Source: a virus. From it: DNA of 42,111 nt. The notes under the pieces are model-generated. The model did not search any database. It saw nothing but the letters and a program-made list of their open reading frames with translations, and was not told the origin of the DNA. The DNA is taken from positions 1 through 42,111 of the IMG/VR virus record IMGVR_UViG_3300005836_000003. One strand, 5' to 3'. Made by a program: the position numbers and the translations under genes. Shown one piece after another: positions 3,118 through 40,922 of the stretch (the stretch's first letter is position 1; each line of letters opens with the position of its first letter).

Positions 3118-4193
3118 GTCGCGCGCTCCTGCGGGTCGACCGGATCGCGGCAGAGCTTGACGGCCTTCTCTAGAAACGTGAGGGCGACTTCATCCCCTCC
3201 GAGCCGCGCGGCGTCGAGATTGAGCACGGCCTGCCGCAGCTCGCGCAGCGCGAAGTTGCTCGGGTCTCGCTCCCATCGGTCGCGCTGCCGGATGAGCGTC
3301 TTGTTCATGCTCTCGAGCTTGAGCAGGCGCTCGGGCGACGAATCGACCGCGCGCAGCTCCGCGACGCGCCGCTCGGAAGCGTCGAGCAGCGACTTCGCGT
3401 GCCGCGCTCCCGCGAGCGCGCCGTCGCGGGCGCTCTCCGCGGCGTAGCGCGCGAGGCGCTCGGCGGCGATCAGCGGGTGCGCCGCGGCATCCTTCGCGGC
3501 CTCGAGCTCGTGCGCCGGCGCGACGAGCGCGGAGCGCAGGGCGGCGGCGATCGACTCCCAGCGGCCGGCGGAGCGCGCGAGGAGCTGGACGGCCCAGAGG
3601 TCTCCGCCGCCCTCGCTCTCGACGAGGTCCGCGAGCCAGTGGATCGCGCTGCGGATGTCCGAGCGCTCGGGCGAGTGCAGGCCGTCGCGCGGCGGCAGCT
3701 CGAAGCCGAGCACGCGCGCCTGCAGGCGCAGCTCGTCGTCGCGCTCGCGCGCGCGCTCCCGCGCGTCCTCGTCGATCATCTCGCGCTCTGCGAGCTCACG
3801 CTCCGCGGCCTCGCCCTCGGCCGCACGCTTGCAGTCCCACAGCAGGCCCGAAGCCACGTCGTAGGAGTCGCGGCCGAGCTTCTCGCGGAGCACCGAGAGC
3901 AGCGCGTCGGTCGCGGCCTGGGCCGTGAGCTGCGGGGCTACCCGCTCCGAGAGCGTCGCTTCGGGAGCGACGTCGTCGCCGTCGTCGACCTCGTCCTCCG
4001 GAGCGAGCGGCTGCGCCATGCGCTCGGCTTCGAGCTCGTCGGCGCGGGCGGCGCGCCCGAGCAGCCAGTCGAGAGCCTCTCGATCGCGGGGGCCTCCTTC
4101 GCCCTCGTTTATTGCGGCTGCGATCGACTCCAGGATCTCCGCGCGCGCGAGATCGGCGCTCATCGGGAGCTGGGCCTTTCCCTTCGATTCCAT
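3114..4193 (-). CDS. Unknown 359-residue helical, charged protein
   Basis: Begins at an ATG with a good Shine-Dalgarno (GGAGG, seven bases upstream) about 50 bases downstream of the -10 of promoter P1, so it is the first gene read from that promoter. The protein is almost wholly helical: an acidic segment at 65-80 (EDEVDDGDDVAPE), a Glu/Arg-rich probable coiled coil at 125-160 (EAAERELAEREMIDEDARERARERDDELRLQ in part), and Ala-rich helices to the end. Phage early regions often carry such helical accessory proteins; no catalytic motif or known family is seen. The overlap of its stop with the next gene places it in the same transcript as the resolvase. Confidence 0.65.
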   Translation of the reverse strand: MESKGKAQLPMSADLARAEILESIAAAINEGEGGPRDREALDWLLGRAARADELEAERMAQPLAPEDEVDDGDDVAPEATLSERVAPQLTAQAATDALLSVLREKLGRDSYDVASGLLWDCKRAAEGEAAERELAEREMIDEDARERARERDDELRLQARVLGFELPPRDGLHSPERSDIRSAIHWLADLVESEGGGDLWAVQLLARSAGRWESIAAALRSALVAPAHELEAAKDAAAHPLIAAERLARYAAESARDGALAGARHAKSLLDASERRVAELRAVDSSPERLLKLESMNKTLIRQRDRWERDPSNFALRELRQAVLNLDAARLGGDEVALTFLEKAVKLCRDPVDPQERAT

Positions 4194-4462
4194 GTCGTCC
4201 TCCGTGGGTCCTGGGGAGAGCGCCTCTGCGGCGAGCGGGGATCCTCTCGGGGGATCGGCGCCGCGTCAATACGAAAAGCGCTAGCCTCGCTCGCGAGCCG
4301 CGCCAGGCGCTCCGAGACCAGGCCCAAGATCGACGCGCGCACGCGCGGATCGAGCTCGTGCGCGTCGAGCTGCAGGATCCAGCTCGCGCAGCCGCGCGCG
4401 TCGGCCCCGCGGATCCGGCCCCGCAGCTCGGCGGCGATCTCCTCGATCGGGCGGGCGCTCAC
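4160..4462 (-). CDS. Unknown protein, paralogue of the adjacent gene; 3' end carries promoter P1
   Basis: 100 residues, GTG start coupled to the previous stop. Residues 5-62 align with the whole of the neighbouring 75-residue protein: both have a GC followed by an IL dipeptide, a DPR.R motif and a RLA.LA helix (here DARGCASWILQLDAHELDPRVR in outline, there DPAGCAELILEV). This points to tandem duplication of a small helical domain of unknown function. The last 35 residues or so (Pro/Arg-rich) are encoded across promoter P1 and overlap the start of the 3114-4193 gene, so they may be a late extension. In the other promoter copies a TAG stop stands just before the conserved box; here the TAG is out of frame. 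Confidence 0.55.
   Translation of the reverse strand: MSARPIEEIAAELRGRIRGADARGCASWILQLDAHELDPRVRASILGLVSERLARLASEASAFRIDAAPIPREDPRSPQRRSPQDPRRTTWNRRERPSSR
4241..4279 (-). promoter_or_regulatory. Promoter P1 (repeat promoter module)
   Basis: On the minus strand the element reads GCTTTTCGTATTGACGCGG, with -35 TTGACG at 4269-4264, then 17 bases, then a weak -10 GAGGAT at 4246-4241. The upstream box and -35 match the modules at 7.09 and 7.41 kb almost base for base, with one extra T in the T-run. The first gene downstream starts at 4193 behind a strong ribosome binding site. The element lies inside the 3' part of the gene 4160-4462, so that gene is read through its neighbour's promoter. Confidence 0.6.
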
Positions 4463-7069: not shown

Positions 7070-7106
7070 ATCGTAGGCGCGCGCGGGGCCGCGTCAATAC
7101 GAAAGC
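7070..7106 (-). promoter_or_regulatory. Promoter P2 (repeat promoter module, best match to consensus)
   Basis: Minus strand: GCTTTCGTATTGACGCGG (7106-7089) with -35 TTGACG (7097-7092), a 16-base spacer and -10 TACGAT (7075-7070). It starts immediately after the TAG stop of the 7108-7371 gene. With a start point about seven bases beyond the -10, transcription begins at the ATG at 7062. This is the copy with the best -10 and anchors the alignment of the other three. Confidence 0.75.
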
Positions 7107-7430: not shown

Positions 7431-9560
7431 CTAGGGCTGGAGCTGGCGCAGCAGGAAGGCGAAGTCGTCGGCGTACAGCGACGCGCGGTAGGGGTTGGGC
7501 ATCTTCGCCAGGATCCCCGCGATGGGATCGGCGTGGTTCCCGCAGAGCGCGCCGACCGCCTGGGCGAACTCGGGGTAGGCCTGGGCCGAGCCGTCCGCGT
7601 AGGCGAAGGCGAAGGCGTGGCCGAGCTCGGCGTCGTCGACGTGGTAGCGCGGCGAGCAGCTCTCGAGCGGCGCGCTCGAGCGCGCGACCCCGCGCACGGC
7701 GAGGAAGTCCGCGGGGCCCGGGGCCGCGCCGGACTGCCAGGCCTGGCGCCAGACGGCGAGCGCGAGCTCCGGCCAGGCGGGCGAGCGCCCGAGCGCGAGC
7801 TCGCAGCAGCGCGCGCCGACCTCGAGGTAGACCTCCTCGTCGGGCGTCGTCGTCGCCCAGAGCGCGTTCCCCTGGGCGTCAAAGAACACAGGGCCGTCTT
7901 TGATATACGCCGGGTGCGCGCGGCGGAATCCGCTCGGCATCCGCGCCTCGTCGAGCAGCATGGCGCACTCGGCGACGTGCCGGCGCCAGCGGCTGCGCCA
8001 GGCGTCCGCCGAGAGGACGACGGTCGCGGCGGCCATCGCCAGCGGGTGCCCCTGGCCGCGGCCCCAGAGCGTGCCATGCCCCGGCCAGGCGTCGAGCGCG
8101 GCCAGCTCGCCGGCGAGCCGGCCGTAGGTCCGCTGCTGCATCCTCCAGACCTCCGAGAGGTCGCGCAGCGCCCAGGCCGCGAGCGCGTCGTTGCGCAGCA
8201 GCGCGAGCGCCACGAGCGGCGACCAGACCCGGATCAGGTGCTGGTCGTCGATGCGCTGGTACTGCCCGGGCCCCAGCCCGAAGGCCTGGACCTCCTGCTC
8301 GACCCAGGCGCCCGACGCGGGTCGCTCCAGCGAGGCCGCGGCGAAGCCGAAGGCGCCGTCGCGGCCGGGCTCGAACTCCCCGCCGATCGCGGACAGGCGC
8401 CAGGAGCCCAGCGGGTGGCCCGTCGCGTCGAGCCAGCGCTCGAGCGCGACCGGCGTCCCGTCGCCCTCGAGCAGGAGGCAGGGGTGCCGAAAGAGGACCA
8501 TCGCGGCCTCGGCCTGGATCGCGGAGATCGCCTCGGGCGCGCCGGACATCACGGCCGCGAGCGCCTTCTGCGCGACGACCTCGCGGTCCGCGCCGCCCGT
8601 CGTGCCGCCGTAGGCGACGCCCCAGGGAACGAAGTGCCCGATGCGCGCCGGCAGGCCCACGGTCGCGTTCGTGCCGAAGCTCGTGCCGTCCCGCAGGGCC
8701 GTGGAGATCCCGGTCCACTCGCCGGCGGCGAGCGCCTCGAGCGTCGCGGCGAGCCCGGCCGTGCGCGCGTCGAGGCGCGGCAGCGGCAGGCCGCTCGGGA
8801 GCCAGGCGGGCAGCTCGGCCCACTGGTCCGAGGCGCCAAAATCCTCGGAGCGCGCGAGCGCCTCGGCGAGGGCGCGGTCGGCGGGGTCCGCGTAGCAGAC
8901 CAGGCGGAACAGCCGCGCCTGGCGCTGGACGACGACCCAGGCGGCGGCGCTCGGGGCGCGCGGCGAGAGCGGCTCGAGGCCGCTGCCGGCGGCCTCATCG
9001 CCGAGCGGCTCCGGCCAGGCCGAGGCCGCGCGCCAGCCCGAGGGCAGCGCGAGCCGGAAGCGCTCGAGGAACAGGTGCGGCGAGCCGGCCGCCGCGGCGT
9101 GCACGGCGAGGTCGACGCGCACGACGTCGCGGCGGTCGTAGAAGGTCGCGGCTCCGCGGCACCACGGCAGGGCGAACCAGCGCTCGTGCTGCAGCGCGCC
9201 ATCCCGGCGGTCGCAGACCCAGTCGGCGAGCTCCGGGCCCTGGCCGCGGTCGAGCGGCACGCCGGCGCGGAAGGCCTCGGCCGCGGCGTCGCCGGGCTGC
9301 GCGAGGCCCGCGGCCTCGATGCCGGCGACGACCTCGTAGACCGCCGGCATCGAGGGCGGCGCGGGGTCCGCGAAGGAGACCTCGACGACGCCCGGGGCGC
9401 CGCGCCGGCTGGGCGCATAGACGAGGTCGACCTGGGCGGCGAGCGTCGCCCCCGAGGGCGAGCGCGCCGAGAGCTCGGGCGGTTCGCCCGGCGGGAAGTA
9501 GGGGACGGGGACGGACGCGCGGACGATGCCGCAGGGGCGGCGGACGAGGAGCTTCGACAC
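7431..9560 (-). CDS. Large virion-associated protein, possible polysaccharide-degrading enzyme
   Basis: 709 residues. The GTG start at 9560 has GGAGG seven bases upstream and follows the hydrolase stop by 13 bases; the open frame continues further upstream but without gene-like sequence. The N-terminal 110 residues are beta-rich (SVPVPYFPPGE, GATLAAQVDLVYAP, GVVEVSFADP) in the style of the barrel that precedes the catalytic domain of exo-acting polysaccharide lyases of the PcRGLX/YetA type. The remainder is Trp- and helix-rich (TLWGRGQGHPLAMAAATVV, WRSRWRRHVAEC, EEVYLEVGARCCELA), which could be an alpha/alpha toroid. Catalytic residues cannot be assigned. Position after two fibres and an esterase suggests a structural or depolymerase role on the virion. 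An ordinary adhesin remains possible. Confidence 0.6.
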   Translation of the reverse strand: MSKLLVRRPCGIVRASVPVPYFPPGEPPELSARSPSGATLAAQVDLVYAPSRRGAPGVVEVSFADPAPPSMPAVYEVVAGIEAAGLAQPGDAAAEAFRAGVPLDRGQGPELADWVCDRRDGALQHERWFALPWCRGAATFYDRRDVVRVDLAVHAAAAGSPHLFLERFRLALPSGWRAASAWPEPLGDEAAGSGLEPLSPRAPSAAAWVVVQRQARLFRLVCYADPADRALAEALARSEDFGASDQWAELPAWLPSGLPLPRLDARTAGLAATLEALAAGEWTGISTALRDGTSFGTNATVGLPARIGHFVPWGVAYGGTTGGADREVVAQKALAAVMSGAPEAISAIQAEAAMVLFRHPCLLLEGDGTPVALERWLDATGHPLGSWRLSAIGGEFEPGRDGAFGFAAASLERPASGAWVEQEVQAFGLGPGQYQRIDDQHLIRVWSPLVALALLRNDALAAWALRDLSEVWRMQQRTYGRLAGELAALDAWPGHGTLWGRGQGHPLAMAAATVVLSADAWRSRWRRHVAECAMLLDEARMPSGFRRAHPAYIKDGPVFFDAQGNALWATTTPDEEVYLEVGARCCELALGRSPAWPELALAVWRQAWQSGAAPGPADFLAVRGVARSSAPLESCSPRYHVDDAELGHAFAFAYADGSAQAYPEFAQAVGALCGNHADPIAGILAKMPNPYRASLYADDFAFLLRQLQP

Positions 9561-9573
9561 GGGGGTCCTCCGG

Positions 9574-10698
9574 TCAGGTATAGGCGGGGATCTGCAGGTC
9601 GTCGTCGATCCAGTCGAGCATGAGCTGGCCCGAGGTCGCGAGGATCGGGGTCGCGGGGCGGCCGTCGGGGTTGTTGGTCGGGTTGCCCCAGTAGATCCGG
9701 TGCAGCGAGTCGCGGTATCCCGCGAGCCCGAGCTGCGCCTTGAGCGCCTCCTCGACGAGCAGGGCCGTGCCCGGCTCGTGCGGGTCGAGGCAGGTCGGGA
9801 TCGAGACGCGCGCGGCCGCGGCGGCGAGGAACTGCGCCTTGGTCGTCGCCGCGCTGCCGAGCATGATCCCGTCCGCGGCGCTCCCGCCGTTGACGATGAA
9901 CAGCGGCAGGCCCCGGTTGGGGTACAGGTCGGCCTCGACGTACGGGAGGAAGCTCGAGGCGCGGCGCACGTCCGGCGAGACCTGCTGGAGCTTGGGGCTC
10001 GCGTCGTGCCACTGGTTCGCGCCGTACAGCGGCAGGAGGTTCGCCGAGAGCCCCGCGTCCGCCGCGAGCCGCAGGTCGGAGAATACGTCGACGAGGATCG
10101 CCGCGCCGGCGCGGTGGTCGAAGTAGGGCACCATCGGGTGGTCGCGCCGGTAGCCGAGCCGGTCGGGGCTCTCGTACGGGAAGGCGCCGGGGAGCTGGAG
10201 CAGCGACCAGGCCCAGTTGTCGGAGCCGCTCGAGATCCCCTGGCATACGACGCGCTCGGTCCGCCAGGTCGTGCGGTGCGCGGTGCTGTTGGTGATGCGG
10301 CCCTGGTAGCCCCAGGTCTTGGCCATCTGGACGGCCTTCGCCATCCGGGCCAGGTTCTCGGGGAAGGAGTCGACCGGGTAGATCTGCGGCCAGGAGCCGG
10401 CCGTCGTGGTGCTGTATCCGGACGGCCAGTGCACGAAGCCGACGGCCCAGCCGGCGGCGAGCAGCGTGTCGGCGAGCGAGGACACGGGCAGCGCGTAGCC
10501 GGTCGGGTCGCTCCAGCGCTTCGAGTGGTGGTCGCTCGACGTCCAGCCGCCCCCGTACGTCGAGAGGAGCAGGCTGATCTCCTCGTGGCTCTCCCAGTCG
10601 GCCGGCAGCCAGATCGCAAGCAGGCACTGGGAGCGCTCGTCGTAGAAGTCGACGAAGTCGGCCGAGGCCCATGTGTAGGCGGCGGGGACGCCCGGCAT
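9574..10698 (-). CDS. Alpha/beta-hydrolase fold esterase, tail-associated
   Basis: 374 residues, ATG overlapping the stop of the upstream fibre gene (ATGA). The order of motifs is that of serine esterases: a beta-rich start, the oxyanion-hole loop STYGGGW (46-52), the nucleophile elbow GISSG (154-158, nucleophile Ser156), an acid candidate Asp276 in VNGGSAADG (269-277), and His307 in LDPHEPG (304-310). All three triad candidates are in the expected order. No secretion signal is present, which fits a virion component. Phage particles use such enzymes to remove acetyl or other ester groups from capsule or lipopolysaccharide. It lies between a tail fibre and a putative polysaccharide-active protein, supporting this. 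A peptidase of the same fold cannot be excluded. Confidence 0.72.
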   Translation of the reverse strand: MPGVPAAYTWASADFVDFYDERSQCLLAIWLPADWESHEEISLLLSTYGGGWTSSDHHSKRWSDPTGYALPVSSLADTLLAAGWAVGFVHWPSGYSTTTAGSWPQIYPVDSFPENLARMAKAVQMAKTWGYQGRITNSTAHRTTWRTERVVCQGISSGSDNWAWSLLQLPGAFPYESPDRLGYRRDHPMVPYFDHRAGAAILVDVFSDLRLAADAGLSANLLPLYGANQWHDASPKLQQVSPDVRRASSFLPYVEADLYPNRGLPLFIVNGGSAADGIMLGSAATTKAQFLAAAAARVSIPTCLDPHEPGTALLVEEALKAQLGLAGYRDSLHRIYWGNPTNNPDGRPATPILATSGQLMLDWIDDDLQIPAYT

Positions 10699-13072: not shown

Positions 13073-16000
13073 CTACCCGTCGCTCATCCCGAGCGCCAGC
13101 CGCAGCGGATCGCGCATCGGCAGCTCGAGCGCGAGCGCGTCGAGGACCACGGCGGGGAGCGCGAGCGAGCCCGCTACGACGAGCGGGAGCTGGAGCAGGA
13201 ACTCGGGCGGCTCGACGCCGAGCACGGCGACCTGCGGCGCGGCGGCGTGCGCCTGCGCGGCCGCCGGCGCGAGCAGCCAGGAGAGGTCGAGCGCGGGCGC
13301 CGCGGCGGACGCCGAGAGCGCCGCGGGCCCGGGCGAGAGCGCGATCTCGAGGACGAGCGCGGCCGCCGGCGCCTGCGCGGCCGCGGCCGCCGCGCCGGGC
13401 GAGAGCGCGAGCGCGAGCGCGAGGGCGGGCGCCGGCGCGGAGGCCGAGACCTGCGCAGCAGCGGGCGAGAGGTCGAGGAAGGATCCGGCCGCGGCGATGG
13501 GGGCGGAGGTCGAGACCGCGGCGGCCGCGGGCTGCAGCGCCAGGTCGAGCGCCAGCGCGGCCGCCGGAGCCTGCGCGGAGGCCTGCGCCGCCGAGGGCTG
13601 GAGCACGACGTTCGACGTCACGAGCGGGTCGGGAGCCGCGAGGACCGCCTGCGCGGCCCCAGGATCGAGCCGCAGCGCCAGCGCGGCCGCGGGCGCGGAG
13701 GCGGCCGCGGACGCGGCGGCGGGCGCCAGGTCGAGCGCCAGGGACACGCCCGCCGCCGGCGCGGAGGGCGAGGCCGCTGCCGCCGAGGGCGAGAGGATCT
13801 GCCCGAGCACGAGCGCGGGGTCGACGAGCTTCGCCCGCGCCTTGCCGGCGGCCGGCAGCATCGCCAGCGCGAGCGCCGGATCCGGGGCCGCGGCCGAGGC
13901 CGCCGCCGAGGCGGGCGAGAGCACGATCGGGGTCCCGACCGCGGCGACGACCTTGGGGGCCTTCGCCGTCGCGGCCGCGCGCTCGGGGGAGAGCGCCAGC
14001 GCGAGCGCGAGGGCCGGCGCCGGCGCGGAGGTCGCCGCCGCCGCCGCCGAGGGCTGCAGCAGGATTACGGCGCTCGAGCCGACCGTCGCGGCGGGCGCCT
14101 CGAGCAGCGCGACGGCGGGCGCGTCCGAGACGACGATCCCGGCGAGCGCCTGCGACCAGGGCGGGTAGGCCGCGTTGGGGCCGGCGAGCGCGTCGATCTG
14201 GGCGTTCGTGAGCAGCCCGTTCCCGCTCCCCGTCTGCGCCGGGTTCGCGGTGTAGCCGTAGCGGACCTTCCCGCCGGTCGCGCCGAAGCCCGGCCAAGTG
14301 TGCGGGGTCGCGCCGTAGACGGCCACGTCGAATTCGAGCGTGCCGCAGTCGAGCGGGCCCGAGTTCATGCCGCCGCCGGGAGCGAAAGAGAAGCAGCCGA
14401 TCGCGGCGCGCGAGCCGTCGACGTCGTGCCCGCGCAGCACGACGGAGGACGCGCCGGCGAGCGCGATGACGTCGCGCGGCTGCGTCCAGGGCGACGCCGC
14501 GCGGAAATAGAAGTCCTCGATGGCGACGGCGCCCGTGTGGAAGGCCGTCCGCGAGAGCGGCCAGGGCGCGGAGTCGAACTCGCCGAGCGTCGTGTGGAGC
14601 CCCTTGCCCCAGTCGCCCCAGACGACGATCCCGCCGCCGTGCGAGTTGATCGAGCGGAGGCGGATGAAGTCGACCGTTCCGAGGAAGCCGGCGACCGTGA
14701 AGGCGCTGGCGCCGTTCTCGCAGCAGCCGTCCGCGGTGCAGTCCTCCATCCTCGAGTTTCCGAAGCCGGGCGGCCCGCCGTAGATCGGGCCGCCGTCCGC
14801 GATCGCCCGCTGCACGAGCTGGATGCACGTGCGGCCGGTGCGCGGGACGGCCGGAGCGGCCGCGTACGTCACGTTGCGCACGCCGCGCGCCCAGAAGCCG
14901 CCCTGGGGCGCGTCGACGTAGATCACGTGCTCCTCGCACTCGCCGCCGATCAGCTCGAGGATCTCCCAGCGCGCGTAGCCCGCGCGGATGCAGGTCTTGG
15001 TGTCGTACAGGCTCCCGTAGTTCTTGGCGCCCGAGCACTCGCAGTCGTAGAAGCCGAAAAGGCCGTTGACCTCCTGGTCCCCGAGCGGCGTCGACCAGCA
15101 GTAGGTCGTCCCGCCGGGATTGTGGAAGTCGCAGCGGTAGAAGCGCAGCGCGTCGAGCGGGCCCTGGTCGTGCGTGACGGCCATGTTGTCGCGCACGAAG
15201 CGGCTCGCGCCGAAGCGCCGGATGCGGGCGCGCGCGAGCGGGTCGACGCCGACGATATACAGATCGTGGATCCGCGCGAACGGGCCGGTGTGCGGGCCCC
15301 AGTAGGCGCAGTAGGTCTTGCCCGTGTCGGTGTCCCCGATCGAGACGAAGTCGAGGTCGCAGCCCGGGGCGATGTCGATGCGGTTCCCGGGGCCCGAGCG
15401 GCGGATCGCATCGGCCAGGGCCTTGTCGTCGAGCGGCCCGCCGTAGCGCGTGTCCGTCGTGAAGAAGCCGCCCGTTGCCATGTTCCGGATGCGGTAGCGG
15501 TTCGGGACGGTGCCGCCGTTGTAGCCCGGCTGCAGCTCGACGACGAAGGTCGTCGCGGGCAGCGCCGGGTAGGAAGTCGGCGGCGCATCGGTCACGGAGA
15601 GGTCGAGCTCGCAGTCGGGCAGCGCCAGCGCGAGCGCGGCCGCGAATGGCTGGAGCAGGACCTCGAGCGCGAGGGCGGGCGCGGGCGCCGAGATCGAGGC
15701 CGCCGCGGCCGCGGGCGCGAGCGCCAGGGCGAGCGCTAGGACCGCCGCGGGCGCGGAGAGCGAGGCCGAGGCCGCGGAGGGCGCGAGCACGGTCCCGAAG
15801 TCGAGCTGGGGAGCGGGCGCGGACGCGACGGCCGCCGCGGCGCTCGGCGCGAGGTCGATCGAGAGCGCGAGCGCGGGAGCCGGCGCCGAGCAGGTCGCGG
15901 CCGCGGCGGACGGCGCGAGCGCGAGCGCCAGGGCGAGCGCGGGCGCCGGCGCGGAGAGCGCGACCGCGGCCGCCGTCGGCGTCTCGACGATCGGCGTCGG

Positions 16001-16627
16001 GACGGGGAGCAGGGCGAGGCTGTCGCAGATCCAGTCCGCGCTCGTGATCGAGCGCGAGGTCGACGCCTCCGTGCCGGCGCTCGCGCGGGTCTTGTGCTCG
16101 GAGACGACGCGCGCCGTGTTCGCGCCGGCGTCGATGTCCTCCGTCCAGGTCGCCGGCGGCGAGGTCGCGGAGTTGCGCCGGTACGCGACCAGGTGCACGC
16201 AGAGCCGGTCCGAGCCGGCCGTCGTGATCGACGGCGACGTGACGGTCGTGCTCGTGCCCTTGCCCGAGTTGAGGCCCTCGTACGGCGTGCCGACGCCGAT
16301 CGCGTCGCGGTAGTAGACGATCCGCGAGCTGCCGTCGTCGGAGATCGAGAGCGTCGTCGTCGCCGTGCCGCCGTTCTCGCTCCCGTCGCAGCGCCGCCAG
16401 GCCGTGAAGGAGTGGTGGTCGGTCGTCTGCTCCGCGCCGGCGATCGGCGTGAAGCCCGAGGCCCAGCTCGAGACGGACTGCCCCGAGGCGGTCGCCGAGC
16501 AGGTGATCTGCAGTATCGCGATGTCGCCGGCGGCGATCCCGGACGCCGCGTGCGGCGTCGGCACGCTCGCGCTCGCGAGGAAGGAGCCGCCGGTCGGCCC
16601 GTTCTGGTTCCAGCTAGGAGCTGCCAC
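13073..16627 (-). CDS. Giant beta-helix tailspike-like protein with two Ala/Pro/Leu repeat arrays
   Basis: 1184 residues, GTG start at 16627. Layout: residues 1-210, a jelly-roll-like domain (GDIAILQITC, FTAWRRC, SSRIVYYRDAIG) of the kind found on phage tail proteins; 214-346, six 22-residue repeats; about 360-800, a cysteine-rich region typical of right-handed parallel beta-helix/pectate-lyase-like proteins (IRRSGPGNRIDIAPG, FYRCDFHN, FYDCECSGAKNYG, HGGGIVVWGDWG, SSVVLRGHDVDG); 835-1140, about 13 more repeats; then a short Leu-rich end. The beta-helix probably binds or cleaves a surface polysaccharide; catalytic residues cannot be named. The repeats likely form an extended shaft or linker on both sides. 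No signal peptide. Confidence 0.75.
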   Translation of the reverse strand: MAAPSWNQNGPTGGSFLASASVPTPHAASGIAAGDIAILQITCSATASGQSVSSWASGFTPIAGAEQTTDHHSFTAWRRCDGSENGGTATTTLSISDDGSSRIVYYRDAIGVGTPYEGLNSGKGTSTTVTSPSITTAGSDRLCVHLVAYRRNSATSPPATWTEDIDAGANTARVVSEHKTRASAGTEASTSRSITSADWICDSLALLPVPTPIVETPTAAAVALSAPAPALALALALAPSAAAATCSAPAPALALSIDLAPSAAAAVASAPAPQLDFGTVLAPSAASASLSAPAAVLALALALAPAAAAASISAPAPALALEVLLQPFAAALALALPDCELDLSVTDAPPTSYPALPATTFVVELQPGYNGGTVPNRYRIRNMATGGFFTTDTRYGGPLDDKALADAIRRSGPGNRIDIAPGCDLDFVSIGDTDTGKTYCAYWGPHTGPFARIHDLYIVGVDPLARARIRRFGASRFVRDNMAVTHDQGPLDALRFYRCDFHNPGGTTYCWSTPLGDQEVNGLFGFYDCECSGAKNYGSLYDTKTCIRAGYARWEILELIGGECEEHVIYVDAPQGGFWARGVRNVTYAAAPAVPRTGRTCIQLVQRAIADGGPIYGGPPGFGNSRMEDCTADGCCENGASAFTVAGFLGTVDFIRLRSINSHGGGIVVWGDWGKGLHTTLGEFDSAPWPLSRTAFHTGAVAIEDFYFRAASPWTQPRDVIALAGASSVVLRGHDVDGSRAAIGCFSFAPGGGMNSGPLDCGTLEFDVAVYGATPHTWPGFGATGGKVRYGYTANPAQTGSGNGLLTNAQIDALAGPNAAYPPWSQALAGIVVSDAPAVALLEAPAATVGSSAVILLQPSAAAAATSAPAPALALALALSPERAAATAKAPKVVAAVGTPIVLSPASAAASAAAPDPALALAMLPAAGKARAKLVDPALVLGQILSPSAAAASPSAPAAGVSLALDLAPAAASAAASAPAAALALRLDPGAAQAVLAAPDPLVTSNVVLQPSAAQASAQAPAAALALDLALQPAAAAVSTSAPIAAAGSFLDLSPAAAQVSASAPAPALALALALSPGAAAAAAQAPAAALVLEIALSPGPAALSASAAAPALDLSWLLAPAAAQAHAAAPQVAVLGVEPPEFLLQLPLVVAGSLALPAVVLDALALELPMRDPLRLALGMSDG
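13208..14125 (-). repeat. C-terminal array of about 13 coding repeats of about 66 bp (22 residues)
   Basis: The coded unit is L-x-P-x-A-A-x-A-x-x-S-A-P-x-P-A-L-A-L-x-L-x, 22 residues in most copies (20-24 in a few). Examples are LSPAAAQVSASAPAPALALA and LQPSAAQASAQAPAAALALD, each followed by two residues. Copies are diverged, so this is an old repeat kept by selection on the protein, not a recent nucleotide duplication. Confidence 0.85.
15590..15988 (-). repeat. N-terminal array of six coding repeats of 66 bp (22 residues)
   Basis: Same unit as the C-terminal array, for example LAPSAAAATCSAPAPALALS and LAPAAAAASISAPAPALALE, each completed by two residues. Phase is exact at 22 residues through five copies; the sixth (beginning LQPFAAALALALPDCE) is degenerate and leads into the beta-helix domain. 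Confidence 0.85.
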
Positions 16628-20012: not shown

Positions 20013-20699
20013 TCAGGTCTCCTGCAGGGTCAGCGCCGCGGCCGACGGGGCGGCGCTCGGCGCGATGGGCCGGCAGGTCGCCGGGTCCCAGGGCTGGTAG
20101 TCGGTCGGGGCGGTCAGGTCGTACTCGACCTGGCCGAATACGTGCGCCGGCGAGGCCTCCAGGATCGCGCACTCGAGCGAGGCGGCGGTCGGCGCCCAGA
20201 GCGCGTCGCCGGCGCCGGCGAGCCCGGCCTGGAAGAAGATCCCCGTCGCGACGGGCGCGTGCAGAGTGAAGGTGTGCGGCCAGGGCCCGTTCGAGAGCGC
20301 GCCCCCGGCCTCCGAGCCGGCGACGAACGCCCGGTACTCCGTGACGGTTCCGGGAGCCCCGAGCAGGGCCGCGAGCGCCTCGATGTCCGCCGGCGTCGAG
20401 CCGGCGGCGGCCGTGAGGCGGCGCAGGACCGCCGCGCGGCGCTCGGGGATCGTCTGCGCGTCTCCGGCCGTGCACGGCGAGGGCAGGCCCAGGAAGCGCT
20501 CCCACTCGCCCAGGAGCGCCGCGGACGAGCGCGGATCCGACTCCCGCACGAGCAGCGCCGCGAGCTCCTCGACGCGCCCGAAGCCCTCCGCGAGGCCCTC
20601 GTAGAGCGCGCGCGCGACGGACCCGGGCCGTCCCGGGGCCGCGGTGCCCGGGGGCTGCAGCCGGACCAGGACCTCGCCGAGCTCCTCGGCGCGGCTCAC
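20013..20699 (-). CDS. Mu gp48/YmfQ-like (gpI-type) baseplate protein
   Basis: 228 residues, GTG start at 20699 overlapping the stop of gpJ (GTGA). The protein has the form of the DUF2313/YmfQ family: VRLQPPGTAAPGRPGSVARALYEGLAEGFGRVEE near the start, RSSAALLGEWERFLGLP with PCTAGDAQTIPERRAAVLRRLTA (about 58-97), and a C-terminal WDPATCRPI element. In Mu-type tails this protein connects the gpJ wedge to fibres. Order gpJ-gpI-fibre is the standard one, which strengthens the call. Confidence 0.88.
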   Translation of the reverse strand: MSRAEELGEVLVRLQPPGTAAPGRPGSVARALYEGLAEGFGRVEELAALLVRESDPRSSAALLGEWERFLGLPSPCTAGDAQTIPERRAAVLRRLTAAAGSTPADIEALAALLGAPGTVTEYRAFVAGSEAGGALSNGPWPHTFTLHAPVATGIFFQAGLAGAGDALWAPTAASLECAILEASPAHVFGQVEYDLTAPTDYQPWDPATCRPIAPSAAPSAAALTLQET

Positions 20700-21751
20700 G
20701 TGAACACGAGCGCGCCGAGCGCGGCGACGGAGCCGATCGGGACCGCGACGTCCGCCGCGGGCGCGGCGAGCGCGTGGTCGACCTCGCCGGCGGCCTGCGA
20801 GATCGCCTCCTGGAAGTGCGAGAGGTACACGGTCGCGCCGGGCGAGCCCTCGCGCGCGAGCAGGTCCTGGAGCGAGGCCTCGATCGCGGCGCGGACCGCC
20901 AGCGTGTCGGGCGCGATCGAGAGCGTGACGTCGACCTCGAGCACGCCGGGCGCGTAGACGAGCACGTCGGCCGTGATCGGCCGGCGCTCGTCGACGTAGG
21001 CCTGGACCTCCGCGACCTGCGCCGCGTCGGGGATCGGGGCCGTCGAGCCGCTCGAGACCAGGAAGGTGATCCAGACCGTCCCGGGCCCGTCGGCGATGCG
21101 CTCGACGAAGGCCTGCGAGACGTACGCGAACGAGAGGACCCAGGCCTCGTAGTCGCCCGCGCTCCCGCCGCGCCGGCCGGCGCGCATCGCGACGAGCAGG
21201 CGCGCGCGCAGGCTCTCGTCGTCCTCGCGGTCGGAGCCGCCCTCGAGGCCGGGCGCGAGGACCTCGGCGGAGCTCGAGGCGCCCGCGACCGCCGGCGAGA
21301 GCGTCAGCGCTCCGGCGCCGGAGCTCGTGTCGCCGTCGAGCCCCGGCAGCGAGGCCTCCGCGGGCAGGTCGAGCACGCCGCCGGAGATCGAGCCCGAGTC
21401 GGTCGTGCGGAACTCCGCCGCGTCCGAGCGCCGCAGCGTCGCGCCCGCGGCGATCGCGGTCCCGTCGGTGCCCGTGAAGCGGACCGTTCCGTCCGCGCGC
21501 TCCGCGGGCAGGCGCGGGACGCCGAAGATATCGGCCCAGCGCCCGAGCTCGTCGCCGTCCGCGGTGTCCGGAAAGAGCTGCCGCGCGGCCCAGTCGACGT
21601 GCCCGTGCAGGAGGTGCGCGAGGCCCGCCGCGGCGCGCGCTATCACGCGCAGCATCCCGCGGCGCAGGAGCGAGCCCAGGCCCAGGTGCGAGGCTACGTC
21701 GGTCTCGGCCTGCGCCTGCAGCTCCGTCAGCGTCGGGCGGTCGAAGGGCAC
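20696..21751 (-). CDS. Baseplate J-like protein (wedge; Mu gp47 type)
   Basis: 351 residues, GTG start. Family features: an N-terminal helix (TLTELQAQAETDVASHLGLG), LARLAHLLHGHVDW-type helix and DTADGDELGRWADIFGV (61-77), then the beta domain GTVRFTGTDGTAIAAGATLRR (about 86-106) with FRTTDSG, and the GG.DRE.DE.LR.RLL motif (GGSDREDDESLRARLLVAMR, about 174-193). C-terminal half includes AYVSQAFVERIADGPGTVWITFL. The protein forms the wedge of the baseplate. Unusually it is separated from gp46 by 3.2 kb of non-structural genes. Confidence 0.93.
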   Translation of the reverse strand: MPFDRPTLTELQAQAETDVASHLGLGSLLRRGMLRVIARAAAGLAHLLHGHVDWAARQLFPDTADGDELGRWADIFGVPRLPAERADGTVRFTGTDGTAIAAGATLRRSDAAEFRTTDSGSISGGVLDLPAEASLPGLDGDTSSGAGALTLSPAVAGASSSAEVLAPGLEGGSDREDDESLRARLLVAMRAGRRGGSAGDYEAWVLSFAYVSQAFVERIADGPGTVWITFLVSSGSTAPIPDAAQVAEVQAYVDERRPITADVLVYAPGVLEVDVTLSIAPDTLAVRAAIEASLQDLLAREGSPGATVYLSHFQEAISQAAGEVDHALAAPAADVAVPIGSVAALGALVFT

Positions 21752-21784
21752 GCGCGCGAGCGTAGCGCGCGCGCCGCGGCCGGC

Positions 21785-22042
21785 CTAGGGCGCGACCTCG
21801 ATCGACTCGTAGGGCAGGTCGGGCTCGGCCGTCCCGCGGATCTCGACGACGACGCGCAGCCGCGCCCCGCGCGCCTCGGCGTCGCGGAAGGCCTGCGCGC
21901 CGGCCTGGACGGGTCCGGCCTCGAGCAGCAGCTCGCGCGCCCGCTGCTCGGATGCGGCGCAGATCCGGGCGGACGCGAAGCGCGCCTCCCAGCAGCAGCC
22001 GCAGGCGAGCTCGACCTGGTACGTCGCGGATCCGGTGAACAC
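21785..22042 (-). CDS. Unknown Cys-containing small protein, last gene of the inserted cassette
   Basis: 85 residues, GTG start at 22042. Begins FTGSATYQVELACGCCWEARFAS, with three cysteines in CGCC context, followed by a helix (ASEQRARELLLEAGPVQAGAQAF) and a strand (RLRVVVEIRGTAEPDLPYESIEV). The beta-alpha-beta shape and CGCC could indicate a metal-binding mini-domain. No convincing Shine-Dalgarno. It precedes gpJ by 33 bases. Confidence 0.5.
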   Translation of the reverse strand: MFTGSATYQVELACGCCWEARFASARICAASEQRARELLLEAGPVQAGAQAFRDAEARGARLRVVVEIRGTAEPDLPYESIEVAP

Positions 22043-22051
22043 GGAGGCAGC

Positions 22052-22465
22052 CTAGGCGCCCTCGAGCATCCGGGCGAGCGCCTCGAAGTCGCACCGCATC
22101 CGGCGCAGGCGCTCCGCGGCCTTGAGGTCGCCCGAGCGGTGCGCCTCGAGGCGCCCCAGGATCTCGGCGACGAGCGCGTCGAGGTCGACGCGGCTCTCGG
22201 CCAGGTCGGCAAACTCCTCGCCGCCGGGTGAGCTCAGACGGCGCCAGATCCCGGCGTCGTCGAGCCCTGCCCCGAGCGGGCCCGTCGTCAGGACCAGCAG
22301 CGCCGCGCTGCGGTCCCGGATCCAGCGCACGGCCGGCGCGAGCTTGAGCCCGAGCGCGCGCAGCGCCTCCTCCCGCGCCAGGCCGAGCGCCAGCTCCTCG
22401 ATCTCGCGCTCCTCGGCCGAGACCGCGGCGCGGTGCGCGAGCCCCTCGACGTCGCGGGCGCTCAT
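22052..22465 (-). CDS. Unknown helical protein in the cassette
   Basis: 137 residues, ATG start coupled to the upstream stop (ATGA). Helical throughout: SARDVEGLAHRAAVSAEERE, EELALGLAREEALRALGLKL, then a loop IRDRSAALLVLTTGPLG and a second set (LVAEILGRLEAHRSGDLKAAERLRRMRCDFEALARML in outline). No catalytic motif is seen. It lies between the FhxxNP-type protein and the CGCC protein in the inserted cassette. Confidence 0.5.
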   Translation of the reverse strand: MSARDVEGLAHRAAVSAEEREIEELALGLAREEALRALGLKLAPAVRWIRDRSAALLVLTTGPLGAGLDDAGIWRRLSSPGGEEFADLAESRVDLDALVAEILGRLEAHRSGDLKAAERLRRMRCDFEALARMLEGA

Positions 22466-22803
22466 CGGCCGCCCCCGATCGCGCGCAGCTCGAACACCTG
22501 GCCGAGCTCCGGGTGCGCCGCCAGGAAGTGCCGGGCGTAGTAGGGGACGTAGTGGTCGTTCAGGCGCCAGGCCTGCCCGGCCGGGTCGCGGGTCTCGATC
22601 CAGACGTGCCAGCGGATCCTCTCCCAGACCATGCGCGCGCCGATCCTGTGCGCGCGCCCGGCCTTGGCGGCGGCCTCGATCGCGTAGCGCTCGAACAGCT
22701 CCCAGACGGCCGGATTCGCCGCGTGGAACTCCTCCCAGAGCCGCTCGCGCGTCGCGTCGACGGGGAAAGGGAGCATCGGCGCGAGGGTCTCGCGGGCGGA
22801 CAT
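22462..22803 (-). CDS. Conserved phage protein with F-H-A-x-N-P and ERIRWHV motifs
   Basis: 113 residues. The sequence matches a small protein recurrent in many phage and prophage early regions: LWEEFHAANPAVWELFERYAIEAA (22-45), then ARMVWERIRWHVWIET (56-71), then LNDHYVPYYARHFLAAHPELGQVFELR (81-107). The conserved pattern is 'FhaaNP.Vy.lf..fa', 'ErIRWe..vet', 'lNnny...YaR.fm..hPe..gfFe.R'. The biochemical role is not known to me. Its presence here among tail genes is unusual, as its relatives lie with replication genes; it supports the view that this cassette is an early module inserted in the late operon. Confidence 0.7.
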   Translation of the reverse strand: MSARETLAPMLPFPVDATRERLWEEFHAANPAVWELFERYAIEAAAKAGRAHRIGARMVWERIRWHVWIETRDPAGQAWRLNDHYVPYYARHFLAAHPELGQVFELRAIGGGR

Positions 22804-23000
22804 CAGAGCCCCTCCCCGGCATGGACCAGCAGCATCGCGACCCAGAGCGCGGCGATCGTGGCGCCTATCGAGAGGATGACCAGGACGAGCGCTCGCGCGT
22901 CGGAGTCGGACCGCTCGCCCGGCCAGAATAGGAGCTTGAAGGCTCCGCAGATCGCGTAGGCGGCGAGGACTAGGAGCGCGATGGCGAGGGCGGACTTCAC
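22803..23000 (-). CDS. Small two-pass membrane protein
   Basis: 65 residues from the GTG at 23000 (GTGA overlap). Two hydrophobic segments, KSALAIALLVLAAYAICGAF (about 2-21) and ARALVLVILSIGATIAALWV (about 35-54), joined by a short charged loop (KLLFWPGERSDSD). A longer reading to an upstream ATG would add a basic N-terminus that overlaps the previous gene, and is less likely. A small phage membrane protein of this sort could act in exclusion or inhibit the host, but there is no direct evidence. Confidence 0.55.
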   Translation of the reverse strand: MKSALAIALLVLAAYAICGAFKLLFWPGERSDSDARALVLVILSIGATIAALWVAMLLVHAGEGL

Positions 23001-23254
23001 GCGAGGAACTCCAGCAGTGGTACGAGGCGGCCGCGGACGAAGGCGCACGCGAGCTCGAGCTCGCGGCCCGCCAGGCGCACGCGCTCGCCGCGGTAGCTGG
23101 CGCTGCGGCTGCTCGCGAAGGGATCGCCCCCGGCGAGCTGGACGACGACGTGCCGCACGCCGCGGCGGCCGCGGACGACGCGGCGCAGGACGCCCACGTA
23201 CGTGCCCGCGCGGTCCGGCCGAGAGAACTCGAACAGGATGCCGGTGGCGCTCAC
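22997..23254 (-). CDS. Unknown 85-residue beta-rich protein
   Basis: GTG start at 23254 overlapping the stop of the nuclease-like gene. Strands alternate: ATGILFEFSRPDRAGTYVGV, RRVVRGRRGVRHVVVQLAGG, YRGERVRLAGRELELACAFV, RLVPLLEFL. This small, basic beta-barrel could be an OB- or SH3-like nucleic-acid-binding domain. Coupled expression with the PD-(D/E)XK-like protein suggests a functional partner. Not recognised as a family. Confidence 0.5.
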   Translation of the reverse strand: MSATGILFEFSRPDRAGTYVGVLRRVVRGRRGVRHVVVQLAGGDPFASSRSASYRGERVRLAGRELELACAFVRGRLVPLLEFLA

Positions 23255-24033
23255 AGCGGCTGCTCCGGCAGGTCGACGACGGGGTCGACGCCCTCGAGCC
23301 GGCGCAGCGCCGAGCGGAGCTCCTCGCGCACGCGCTCGACGAGGCCTGCGGCGCCGCCGCTCCCTGCCAGGGAGAGCACGGTCCGCACGGCCTCGCCGAT
23401 CCGCCCGGCCTCCCAGGTCCCGCGGACCCTGACGCCGGAGGCCTGCTCGAACAGCTCGAGCCCGCGCTGCAGCTCGGCGAGCGCGCGCTCGCTCTGGGAG
23501 GCCTCGCGCTTGCCGCGCTCGACGCCAGCCTTGTAGCCCTCGTCGCGGCCCTCGCGGCGCGCGGCCGCGATCGCCTCGACCTGCGGGTGCCGGCGGTGCA
23601 CCTGCCGGCAGAGCGAGGCCAGGAAGGCTCGGTCGACCGCGGCGGCCTCGAGCTTGGGCGCCGCTACCTCGACGGCGAGGCCCGCCCCGCGGGGCACGAT
23701 CAGGCCCCAGGTCGGCGGGAGCTCGCCGTCCTGGACGATCGAGCGCGGCGCGACGAGCCAGAAGCGGTCGCAGTACGCGACGAAGTCGTCGGACTTGGCG
23801 GCGCTGCGCAGCTCGCGCAGCCAGTCGGAGCGCTGGACCTTGACCTCGAAGCCGTGGAGCTCGAGGCCCCGCGAGGCCCAGAGGCTCATCGCGATCGCGT
23901 CGAGCGTCCGGGACTTCGCCCAGCCCGTGCCGTCGGGGACCTCGGCGAAGAAGGCCCAGGCGTCGCCGGCGTGGCGCCGGCGCAGCCGCTCGATCAGGTC
24001 GCCCGCGTGGCCGCTCCATTCGGCGGCGCTCAC
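23251..24033 (-). CDS. MmcB/PD-(D/E)XK nuclease-like protein
   Basis: 260 residues, GTG start. The N-terminal 125 residues show the restriction-endonuclease-like core: WAFFAEVPDGTG (26-37, Glu31), SRTLDAIAMSLW (41-52, Asp45), ASRGLELHGFEVKVQRSDWLRE (53-74 in part; Glu63 and Lys65 of the E-x-K), and Lys80, followed by CDRFWLVAPRSIVQDGELPPTWGL (88-111 in part). This is the pattern of phage/DNA-repair-associated MmcB-like proteins. The C-terminus (140-250) is helical and may mediate oligomerisation. It may cleave DNA or act in repair. It lies in a cassette of early-type genes inside the tail operon. Catalytic competence is likely since all core residues are present. Confidence 0.75.
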   Translation of the reverse strand: MSAAEWSGHAGDLIERLRRRHAGDAWAFFAEVPDGTGWAKSRTLDAIAMSLWASRGLELHGFEVKVQRSDWLRELRSAAKSDDFVAYCDRFWLVAPRSIVQDGELPPTWGLIVPRGAGLAVEVAAPKLEAAAVDRAFLASLCRQVHRRHPQVEAIAAARREGRDEGYKAGVERGKREASQSERALAELQRGLELFEQASGVRVRGTWEAGRIGEAVRTVLSLAGSGGAAGLVERVREELRSALRRLEGVDPVVDLPEQPL

Positions 24034-24386
24034 CGCGGGACCTCGCGGAACGGGCCGCCCTGCGGCAGCGAGCAGTCGTCCCGGAACTCGGTCGGCTCCT
24101 CGAGCGTCGATCGCAGGCCGACGAGCGCCTCGATCGCGCCGAGCGCGGCGAACATCGGCCCCGCGCCCGCCGGCTCCAGCTCCGGCAGGAGCGGGATCGC
24201 CGGGATCGCGCGCAGGCCCGCGAGCCGCGCGTCCTCGACGTCCCGCCCGGCCCAGACGATCGCGCTGCCGTCGAGCTTGACGCTGCAGCGGAGTCGCCCC
24301 GGGATGCGCAGCTCTCCGCGCTGCTCGAGCTCGCGCGCGGCCTCGAAGGCCGCGGCGGCGATCAGTGCTGCGAGAGCATCTTTCAC
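24030..24386 (-). CDS. Unknown protein upstream of the nuclease-like gene
   Basis: 118 residues, GTG start at 24386 (GTGA overlap at both ends). Begins KDALAALIAAAAFEAARELEQ, a helix, followed by LRIPGRLRCSVKLDGSAIVWAG, a beta hairpin, and an Ala/Pro/Leu-rich middle. The C-terminus (PTEFRDDCSLPQGGPF) is polar. No catalytic motif recognised. Translationally coupled with the nuclease-like protein, so a joint role is possible. Confidence 0.5.
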   Translation of the reverse strand: MKDALAALIAAAAFEAARELEQRGELRIPGRLRCSVKLDGSAIVWAGRDVEDARLAGLRAIPAIPLLPELEPAGAGPMFAALGAIEALVGLRSTLEEPTEFRDDCSLPQGGPFREVPR

Positions 24387-24814
24387 CGCGGGCGCTCCTC
24401 TCCGGCGAAGCGCAGGCCGTTGCGCGCGACGACCGCTCGCACGAGCTCGGCGTCGTCCGGCGAGAGCTCCGCGAGCTCGCTCTCGAGGATCGCGGAGCCG
24501 TCGCTCCAGCACGCGACGCCGTCGGAGCGCCGCAGGATCTCGGGCTCGCCGTTGCCGGTGTCGATCGGGTATAGCCGCGTGTCCGGCGCGCGGAAGCGCG
24601 GGACCTCGACCACCGTCGAGTGGCGGCCCGACAGCAGGGCCGCGCACGTGCGCGCCAGGCGTCCGCCGCAGCTCGGGCAGAGCGGCCCGTCCTTGAGCCG
24701 CGTGCCGGGGCCCGCGCGCCAGGCGACCAGGAGCGAGCACGGCGCGCAGCGCGCGTGCGTGAAGTCGGAGCGGTGGAGCAGGTACTCCTCGGGCAGTCGG
24801 TACGGTGCGGGCAT
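24383..24814 (-). CDS. Zinc-ribbon protein, first gene of the inserted cassette
   Basis: 143 residues, ATG start at 24814, GGAGG 10 bases upstream. Two CxxC knuckles, CAPC (23-26) and CPSC (46-49), form a probable zinc ribbon, with C57 nearby. The remainder contains SGRHSTVVEVPRFRAPDTRLYPIDTG in outline and a segment ERSDGVACWSDGSAIL-like, ending with a helix AELVRAVVARNGLRFAG. It is the first gene read from promoter P4, about 75 bases downstream of the -10. Possible regulator or nucleic-acid-binding protein. Family not recognised. Confidence 0.6.
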   Translation of the reverse strand: MPAPYRLPEEYLLHRSDFTHARCAPCSLLVAWRAGPGTRLKDGPLCPSCGGRLARTCAALLSGRHSTVVEVPRFRAPDTRLYPIDTGNGEPEILRRSDGVACWSDGSAILESELAELSPDDAELVRAVVARNGLRFAGEERPR

Positions 24815-24889
24815 CTTGAGGCCTCCTCGGTCTCGGTCGCAGCGGCCGCCCGGGCCGCGCGGGCCGTCGCTCCTCGCGCCGGCAGGGAG

Positions 24890-24927
24890 AGCCTCCCATC
24901 CCGCCCGGGCGCGGTCAATACGTAAAT
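24890..24927 (-). promoter_or_regulatory. Promoter P4 (repeat promoter module)
   Basis: Minus strand: GATTTACGTATTGACC with -35 TTGACC (24918-24913), a 17-base spacer and weak -10 GAGGCT (24895-24890). It shares the TTTxCGTATTGAC core with P1-P3 but has diverged more in the flanks. It lies 12 bases after the stop of gp46 and gives the inserted cassette its own transcription start. Confidence 0.55.
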
Positions 24928-24938
24928 CCGATTTCCGC

Positions 24939-25412
24939 TCAGCGGACGAGCAGCCGCAGGCTCGCGCCGGCGAGCCCCCGGCTCGTCTCCCCGCGCTCGA
25001 GGCCGGCCCAGAGCTCCGACCAGCGCCGGGCCGCCCCGCGCGCGATCGTCACGACCAGGCCCAGGCCCGAGCCCGAGAGCTCGGCCTCGACGTCGACGGA
25101 CTCGGCGACGTCGTCCTCCGCGAGCCAGGCGAGCGCGTCGAGCGCGGCCCCGCGCGCGAGCGCGGCCGAGTCCGCCGTCGCCTTGGCGCGCTCGAGCAGC
25201 CAGAGCCGCGAGCCCCAGCGGTCGCCCACGGCCTCGAGCGGCCAGCCGCGCGGGTCCGCCCCGGCCTCGGGCAGCTCGTCGTCCGCGCGCGCCCGCGCGT
25301 CGCAGAACAGCGAGAGCGCGACGGCGGTCCAGAGCCCTTCATCGACCGCCAGGTCGCCGGCCTCGAGGACCAGGTCCGGACCGTCCTCGCCGATCTCGAG
25401 CAGCGCGTCCAT
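24939..25412 (-). CDS. Mu gp46-like baseplate protein
   Basis: 157 residues, ATG start. The profile is that of Mu gp46/T4 gp25-related baseplate proteins: an N-terminal DALLEIGEDGPDLVLEAGDLAVDEGLWTAV in outline, LSLFCDARA (33-41), WPLEAVGDRWGSRLWLLERAK (55-75) and a C-terminal SVDVEAELSGSGLGLVVTIAR strand pair. In Mu-like phages gp46 directly precedes the gpJ-type gp47; here gpJ is 3.2 kb away. The protein lies in the inner baseplate. Confidence 0.88.
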   Translation of the reverse strand: MDALLEIGEDGPDLVLEAGDLAVDEGLWTAVALSLFCDARARADDELPEAGADPRGWPLEAVGDRWGSRLWLLERAKATADSAALARGAALDALAWLAEDDVAESVDVEAELSGSGLGLVVTIARGAARRWSELWAGLERGETSRGLAGASLRLLVR

Positions 25413-40361: not shown

Positions 40362-40922
40362 CTAGCGCTCCCCGCCGCTCGCGCTCCAGCGGTGCCCGCA
40401 CTCCGGGCACTCGTGGACCTGCTGCGTGCGCCCGGCCTTGGTCGCCGCGGCGGGCGTGGGGCGAGGGCCCGCGAGCAGCCTGCGGAGCTGCGCGCGGTCG
40501 AAGCCAAGCGCGGGCATGTCGAGCGGCTCGGCGTCGAAGGCGAGCAGCTCGGCGCGCAGCCGCTGCTCGTCCCAGCTCGAGAGCTCGGCGAGCCGGTTGT
40601 CTGCGATCAGGTAGGCGCGCCGCTGCGCCTCGGTCAGGTGCTCCAGCGGGACGACGGGCACGCGCTCGAGCCCGAGCAGGCGCGCGGCGTCGAGGCGCCC
40701 GTGGCCCGCGATGACGACGGCGCTCGCGGCGTCGACGAGGATCGGAGACACGAAGCCGAACTCCTGGATCGAGCGCGCGATGCGCGCGATCTGGTCGTCG
40801 GAGTGCGTCCTCGGGTTGCGCGCGTAGGGCACGAGCCGCTCGACCGGCCAGAGCTCGATGCGCTCGGCGAGCCGCGCCGGCAGCGCGGGGGCCTTGGCCG
40901 CGGGCGCGCGGCGGGGCTTCAA
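40362..40922 (-). CDS. ParB-like N-terminal domain protein with zinc-ribbon-like end
   Basis: 186 residues from a TTG at 40922 that overlaps the upstream stop (TTGA); an ATG at 41012 would add 30 residues overlapping the zinc-finger gene and is less likely. Core: VERLVPYARNPRTHSDDQIARIARSIQEFGFVSPILV (in outline), the IAGHGRLDAARLLGL box and the YLIADNRLAEL box. These are the ParB/Srx-fold motifs of phage proteins often found next to terminase or fused to DNA methylases; the GHGR box binds nucleotide in ParB relatives. The end has CPECGHRW. No methylase domain here. May act as CTP/ATP-dependent DNA-binding protein or nuclease. Confidence 0.8.
   Translation of the reverse strand: MKPRRAPAAKAPALPARLAERIELWPVERLVPYARNPRTHSDDQIARIARSIQEFGFVSPILVDAASAVVIAGHGRLDAARLLGLERVPVVPLEHLTEAQRRAYLIADNRLAELSSWDEQRLRAELLAFDAEPLDMPALGFDRAQLRRLLAGPRPTPAAATKAGRTQQVHECPECGHRWSASGGER

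Follow-up and report, generated by a model that had tools for sequence, protein, structure and literature searches.

A candidate accessory locus of early-type genes between the baseplate genes gp46 and gpJ of a phage with a Mu-like tail

The hotspots described for P2 and P4 are loci of 1-5 kb that lie between two conserved genes, have a high turnover of content and are rich in anti-phage systems (PMC9122126). In Caulobacter, the PD-(D/E)XK endonuclease MmcB protects the cell from mitomycin C and cisplatin (PMC9578287). Here, we report the analysis of eight short genes, W1 to W8, one of them for a predicted MmcB-type nuclease, which lie between the baseplate genes gp46 and gpJ of the viral record IMGVR_UViG_3300005836_000003. 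The window that we analysed is this whole linear IMG/VR record (42,111 bases, 75% G+C). We propose that the eight genes are probably an accessory locus that is expressed early from its own promoter, carries DNA-processing cargo open to exchange and lies at a site between gp46 and gpJ where such cargo is tolerated.

Nearly all genes of the window are carried by the minus strand, in the order ParB-like, terminase, portal, capsid, Mu-like tail genes and fibres, followed by an early-like region with a RusA-like resolvase. The cassette occupies about 3 kb of the tail module (24814-21785, minus strand) and is bounded by gp46 and gpJ (Table 1). A previous sequence-only reading of this DNA had described eight short overlapping genes at this place, and indeed all eight open reading frames (ORFs) are present with a coding-type G+C pattern. 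Seven of them, W1-W7, are chained through start/stop overlaps of 4 or 1 nucleotides (nt), while W8 is separated from W7 by 9 nt and the start of gpJ lies 33 nt beyond W8. The G+C fraction at the first, second and third codon positions is 0.77, 0.53 and 0.96 in the cassette and 0.75, 0.53 and 0.98 in the late genes, which is the pattern of real genes, and in synonymous codon use the cassette does not differ from the late genes or the early ones (correlation 0.99). Because both measures equal those of the late and early genes, all eight ORFs are likely to be real and long resident.

Was the insert a regular part of such tails? We gathered gpJ-bearing loci from viral contigs and genomes and measured the distance between gp46 and gpJ in the 233 loci with both genes; the scans for relatives were built on short patterns, with which relatives can be missed. 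The two genes are adjacent in 218 of these loci, as they are in Mu, in the Bordetella phages PY223 and PBb002, and in Planctomycetota prophages related in gpJ. The adjacency previously assumed for Mu-like tails is thus borne out, and the cassette is not a constant tail component. Besides the window, a single phage among the 233 loci, L007, has an early-type insert at this junction. The other candidates for further cassettes were ruled out: L245 owes its long gp46-gpJ gap to a tandem array of three J-like copies, the gene order is different in L058 and L074, and L070 and L052 have C-terminal extensions of gp46 or an adjacent ORF. A search for more members of the clade through the neighbouring gpV gene turned up only L404, which is without the cassette. 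The prophages closest in gpJ include Planctomycetota genomes and also Pseudomonadota, and no cultured member was found for the phage group of the window.

L007 (contig IMGVR_UViG_3300031716_000039, 31.5 kb) is the closest relative by gpJ (57% identical) and pairs with the window in the gpJ tree, obtained from a quick search (SH-aLRT, the Shimodaira-Hasegawa-like approximate likelihood ratio test, 99). The two are colinear from ParB to YmfQ, over the whole late module, mostly at 40-70% protein identity. At its gp46-gpJ junction, L007 has a 3.5-kb insert of six coupled genes: a Cys-rich protein, a 93-aa (amino acid) protein, an N6/N4 DNA methyltransferase (PF01555, 2e-45; PADLOC Type II methyltransferase model, 308 bits), a 195-aa protein, a homologue of the F-H-A-x-N-P protein W6 (49% identical, E 5e-29) and, at 8498-8968, the weak relative of W7. 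The nuclease, zinc-ribbon, membrane and CGCC genes of the window have no counterparts in the L007 cassette, where the methyltransferase, the Cys-rich protein and others are found instead, and no homologue of the nuclease W3 was found anywhere on the 31.5-kb contig. Since L007 shares W6, and weakly W7, but has these other genes in place of the nuclease and its companions, the site and one gene have apparently been retained and most of the cargo exchanged between the two phages. The sequence-only reading had proposed an early-type insertion with its own promoter that works as one unit. The insertion and its candidate promoter are supported; a single fixed unit of eight genes is not supported as stated, as L007 keeps only the site, the promoter sequence, W6 and weakly W7, and on this comparison "variable cargo locus" is the more fitting description.

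In L007 (6180-6480), the methyltransferase frame was also seen to extend beyond its first start codon into the preceding gene, where it has no further start codon but encodes residues that resemble those of intact homologues; truncation, frameshift or a fault of assembly would each explain this.

The second line of evidence comes from the promoter region. The sequence-only reading had placed a promoter, P4, in front of the cassette, and as a repeated motif it is real. CGTATTGAC has three copies in the window (24918, 7097 and 4269), all on the minus strand and all intergenic, where 0.02 are expected. The longer form TTT(N)CGTATTGAC precedes the cassette and also occurs at the two sites in the early-like region, where the copies are near-identical across about 25 nt, and downstream of gp46 in L007. 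The single L007 copy, TTTCGTATTGAC, lies about 110 nt behind gp46, immediately before the cassette of that phage; as the motif came from the repeats of the window, this observation is independent of how it was found. The 12-mer, together with a good -10, is also present in two nuclease-carrying prophage contigs (L097 and L102). After TTGAC-N17, the hexamers are GAGGCT and GAGGAT in the window and GATAGT in L007, a layout that fits a sigma-70-type promoter. A sigma-70 consensus scan gave no promoter and no terminator; it missed the promoters because their -10 elements are far from consensus, and the repeated motif was used instead. The motif may function as a promoter, and its presence in front of both the cassette and the early-like region suggests an early timing for the cassette.

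Directly before gpJ, a candidate promoter of the leaderless type sits inside a strong GC inverted repeat, and gpJ of L007 has the same layout (TAGGAC-N17-TACGCT, 6 nt before GTG). Over the whole window, TA[CG][CG]CT followed by ATG or GTG after 6-7 nt is found seven times on the minus strand (13075, 18808, 21764, 22054, 25424, 29894 and 32363) and zero times on the plus strand. Six of the seven are at a predicted gene start and the last, 32363, is where a small gene that precedes the sheath gene probably starts; in several of them the TA belongs to the TAG stop of the upstream gene. These elements look like leaderless-type -10s, which have been described for Deinococcus-Thermus (PMC12340547), and they hint at a host that uses leaderless mRNAs.

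Among the products of the cassette, W3 is the best characterised. It matches phrog_14517 (1.3e-43) over residues 15-204, which is most of the protein, and phrog_5429, annotated "DNA repair protein" (3.4e-23). Its score with PF06319 (MmcB-like) is 17.5 bits, under the curated cut-off of 22, and only 1 of 37 W3 homologues matches this family at E <= 0.001; membership of PF06319 was rejected on score, although the fold agrees. Indeed, the AlphaFold2 model of W3 (predicted local distance difference test, pLDDT, 88) matches 3dnx (Foldseek 5.5e-8; VIA Z 13.9 over 143 residues, well above the next matches), which PDB sequence searches with W3, single and profile, did not reach. We take 3dnx to be an MmcB homologue by sequence, because it is found at 4e-25 by a Jiella protein whose score with PF06319 is 229 bits. 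A profile of the W3 family also aligns with this Jiella protein (87 columns, E 1.8e-5). E31, D45, E63 and K65 of W3 align with residues of the Jiella protein. The intact E-D-ExK core ascribed to this protein by the sequence-only reading was recovered, with D45, E63 and K65 invariant in the 37 homologues and E31 common to chromosomal MmcB. On the model, W3 thus has an MmcB-type PD-(D/E)XK fold with an E-D-ExK core, and it may well be an active nuclease on a DNA substrate.

The genomic neighbourhoods of the relatives are informative. A scan of viral contigs with W3 as a single protein gave no relative, and an alignment-based scan gave 62, none of which carries gp46 or gpJ at its locus. In PY223 the homologue adjoins a ParB-like gene among early genes, and in other annotated phages the relatives lie in an exonuclease/ATPase region or beside a RuvC-like resolvase (JustASigh). 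W6 matches phrog_13625 (6.8e-21) over residues 19-109, again most of the protein, and its family is widespread in phages, with at least 506 relatives in one scan. As had been claimed, its relatives lie in early regions: between cro and RecE/RecT in Sparky, between exonuclease and primase genes in TM4, and in other annotated examples near a BglII-like gene, a methyltransferase gene and a phage RNA polymerase, or near ribonucleotide reductase. Except for L007, no F-H-A-x-N-P locus carries gp46 or gpJ. That the relatives of both proteins are found in early regions and away from gp46 and gpJ supports an early character of the cargo and makes its place in the tail module peculiar to the clade of the window and L007. 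The W6 model (pLDDT 84) has no convincing PDB match, and its structural matches are only phage proteins of unknown function.

W1 has no significant match in Pfam, PHROG, NCBIfam or PADLOC, W2 and W4 have no relatives in Pfam and PHROG searches or in the comparison with the L007 cassette, and W5 has no Pfam or PHROG family match above chance. In the NCBIfam search, none of the window's cassette proteins obtained a usable name.

Altogether, we propose that the cassette is an eight-gene accessory operon of the moron type, located at a gp46-gpJ site that tolerates cargo exchange, and that the carriers are a small phage clade with Mu-like tails and lambda-like packaging. The cassette would be transcribed from its own sigma-70-like promoter, and because this resembles the promoter of the early-like region, W1-W8 would be made early, probably before or apart from the tail proteins, with their translation coupled by the tight gene overlaps. 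With a candidate leaderless promoter to serve gpJ separately, late baseplate expression could continue in spite of the insert. In early infection W3, the main cargo of the window, would cut damaged, branched or foreign DNA, and the F-H-A-x-N-P protein, of a kind widespread among early phage proteins, would accompany the site. The sequence-only reading had offered a repair aid, a nuclease against competing DNA, or exclusion of other phages, and sequence alone cannot separate the three. For W3, we give repair or recombination of phage DNA a small edge over an attack on rival DNA: the family annotation and the gene neighbourhood slightly favour the former, whereas the hotspot-like exchange with a methyltransferase favours the latter.

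Several observations weigh against this proposal. Such a cassette is known from just two phages, and cargo turnover is judged from these two, with one gene clearly in common, as searches for further members yielded none. The codon usage, equal to that of the late genes, gives no sign of a recent arrival. GAGGCT makes a poor -10 hexamer for the cassette promoter, and no terminator was found between the cassette and gpJ, so that read-through both ways is possible. Finally, the L007 methyltransferase starts at motif IV, without the usual in-frame upstream start codon, and this cargo may not be intact.

Of the other explanations, the one that survives best, though we consider it unlikely, is that the locus is an island of inter-phage conflict, in which the nuclease of the window and the methyltransferase of L007 exclude competing DNA or protect against it, like P2/P4 hotspot cargo. 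Its size (3.0-3.5 kb), its placement between conserved genes and its cargo turnover match the hotspot description (PMC9122126), and it holds a nuclease fold also found in restriction enzymes, a Type II-like methyltransferase and a small membrane protein. However, PADLOC matches no cassette protein of the window to a known defence family, the closest families of the nuclease are annotated as DNA repair and located in recombination or early regions, and nuclease and methyltransferase were not found together in one cassette. Less probable still, the cassette could be a displaced piece of the replication/recombination region that performs its ordinary job from within the tail module, as might be thought from the promoter motif common to the early-like region and from the PY223 nuclease homologue beside a ParB gene among early genes. 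Against this, the window retains its early-like region, including RusA, at the usual location, and L007 keeps the site without a nuclease homologue on its contig, which argues that the nuclease is not a core replication function.

We regard it as very improbable that W1-W8 are virion components, co-assembled in the baseplate with gp46 and gpJ. They are located in the baseplate operon, and in other relatives gp46 is fused at this junction to additional domains, but 218 of the 233 relatives lack them, they have their own candidate promoter and relatives in early regions, and the cargo includes a nuclease and a methyltransferase. An assembly chimera of the metagenomic contig, conceivable for a linear record of unknown completeness, is hardly credible, given that L007, an independent contig assembled from a different sample, also carries an insert between gp46 and gpJ, that this insert shares the promoter 12-mer and has a homologous gene, and that codon usage is uniform.

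If the locus is indeed accessory, its position has some consequences. Early genes within a late structural operon are unusual, and with the conserved gp46-gpJ pair as anchor, Mu-like phages and prophages can be mined in a simple way for unknown accessory systems. As nuclease and methyltransferase alternate at one site, the function under selection would be conflict at the level of DNA, or DNA processing, and the promoter motif common to the cassette and the early-like region is a testable handle on early regulation in this phage group. More tentatively, and with rather more doubt than confidence, one may take the gp46-gpJ junction as a new anchor for exchangeable cargo in Mu-type tail operons, holding an early-regulated nuclease-or-methyltransferase module for conflict or DNA processing that is insulated within the late baseplate operon by the leaderless gpJ promoter.

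Table 1. Cassette genes, flanking genes and candidate promoter elements of the window
Feature	Position	Strand	Description	Basis
W1	24383..24814	-	143 aa, two CxxC pairs, zinc-ribbon-like	ORF and coding signal
W2	24030..24386	-	118 aa	ORF and coding signal
W3	23251..24033	-	260 aa, predicted MmcB-type PD-(D/E)XK nuclease, long C-terminal helix	profile matches, AlphaFold2 fold, conserved core
W4	22997..23254	-	85 aa	ORF and coding signal
W5	22803..23000	-	65 aa, two hydrophobic segments, predicted two-pass membrane protein	sequence itself
W6	22462..22803	-	113-aa F-H-A-x-N-P protein	phrog_13625 family
W7	22052..22465	-	137 aa	weak relative at the same position in L007, blastp E 0.003
W8	21785..22042	-	85-aa CGCC protein	no counterpart in L007
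gpJ (flank)	20696..21751	-	baseplate wedge, Mu gp47	PF04865, 5e-56
gp46 (flank)	24939..25412	-	baseplate wedge	PF07409, 2e-29
Cassette promoter (candidate)	24890..24926	-	TTTACGTATTGACC, 17-nt spacer, GAGGCT	
Second promoter-motif copy	7086..7104	-	in front of 7071	
Third promoter-motif copy	4258..4277	-	ahead of gene 3114-4193 and of the region with RusA	
gpJ promoter (candidate)	21752..21787	-	TAGGCC-N17-TACGCT, 7 nt before GTG, leaderless type	

Other features were noted along the way. At the gp46-gpJ junction of L404 (IMGVR_UViG_3300049483_000194, gpV 52% identical to that of the window), positions 7917-10079 encode a 720-aa gp46-sulfatase fusion (PF07409 7e-25 and PF00884 2e-18, sulfatase motif CGPTR) with gpJ 17 nt downstream, which would be a baseplate-borne sulfatase. 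In another clade, gp46 of L052 (7054-8982) has a 497-aa C-terminal extension of unknown fold at this junction, and L070 (667-2341) has gp46 with an immunoglobulin-like domain followed by a separate 333-aa ORF. In the window, the ParB-like gene (40362-40922) lies directly before the small terminase gene, an arrangement also found in L007, and its product also resembles the N-terminal part of ParB-methyltransferase fusions (phrog_498). Finally, positions 13073-16564 encode a 1163-aa fibre-like protein with many Ala/Leu/Ser-rich repeats around an apparent beta-helix region.

Compared with known systems, W3 shares with MmcB (PF06319, 3dnx) the PD-(D/E)XK fold, the E-D-ExK core, the CDR motif and the G-L-I/AP motifs, while it differs in being phage-encoded, in having about 100 extra C-terminal residues, mostly helix, and in its sub-cut-off Pfam score. 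It belongs to the same family as the phage nucleases of phrog_14517/phrog_5429 (PY223 y223_00022, Aeromonas phage ST4), at no more than 43% identity, but these are in early regions and W3 is in a tail module. The same holds for W6, a member of the phrog_13625 family together with Mycobacteriophage TM4 gp63 and Sparky gp54, whose place is in early regions. As for the locus, it differs from the P2/P4 hotspots by its anchor, the gp46-gpJ pair within the baseplate operon, by a promoter motif common to the phage's own early-like region, by W6 being kept between cassettes, and by having no recognised defence system in the window; the likeness rests on two examples. In these two phages it resembles them as a small variable locus of 3.0-3.5 kb, within the range of about 1-5 kb, between conserved phage genes, with nuclease or other DNA-enzyme cargo and with relatives that have the insert and relatives (218 of the 233 loci) that do not. 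Judged from the two cassettes, the locus would extend the known cargo hotspots of phages.

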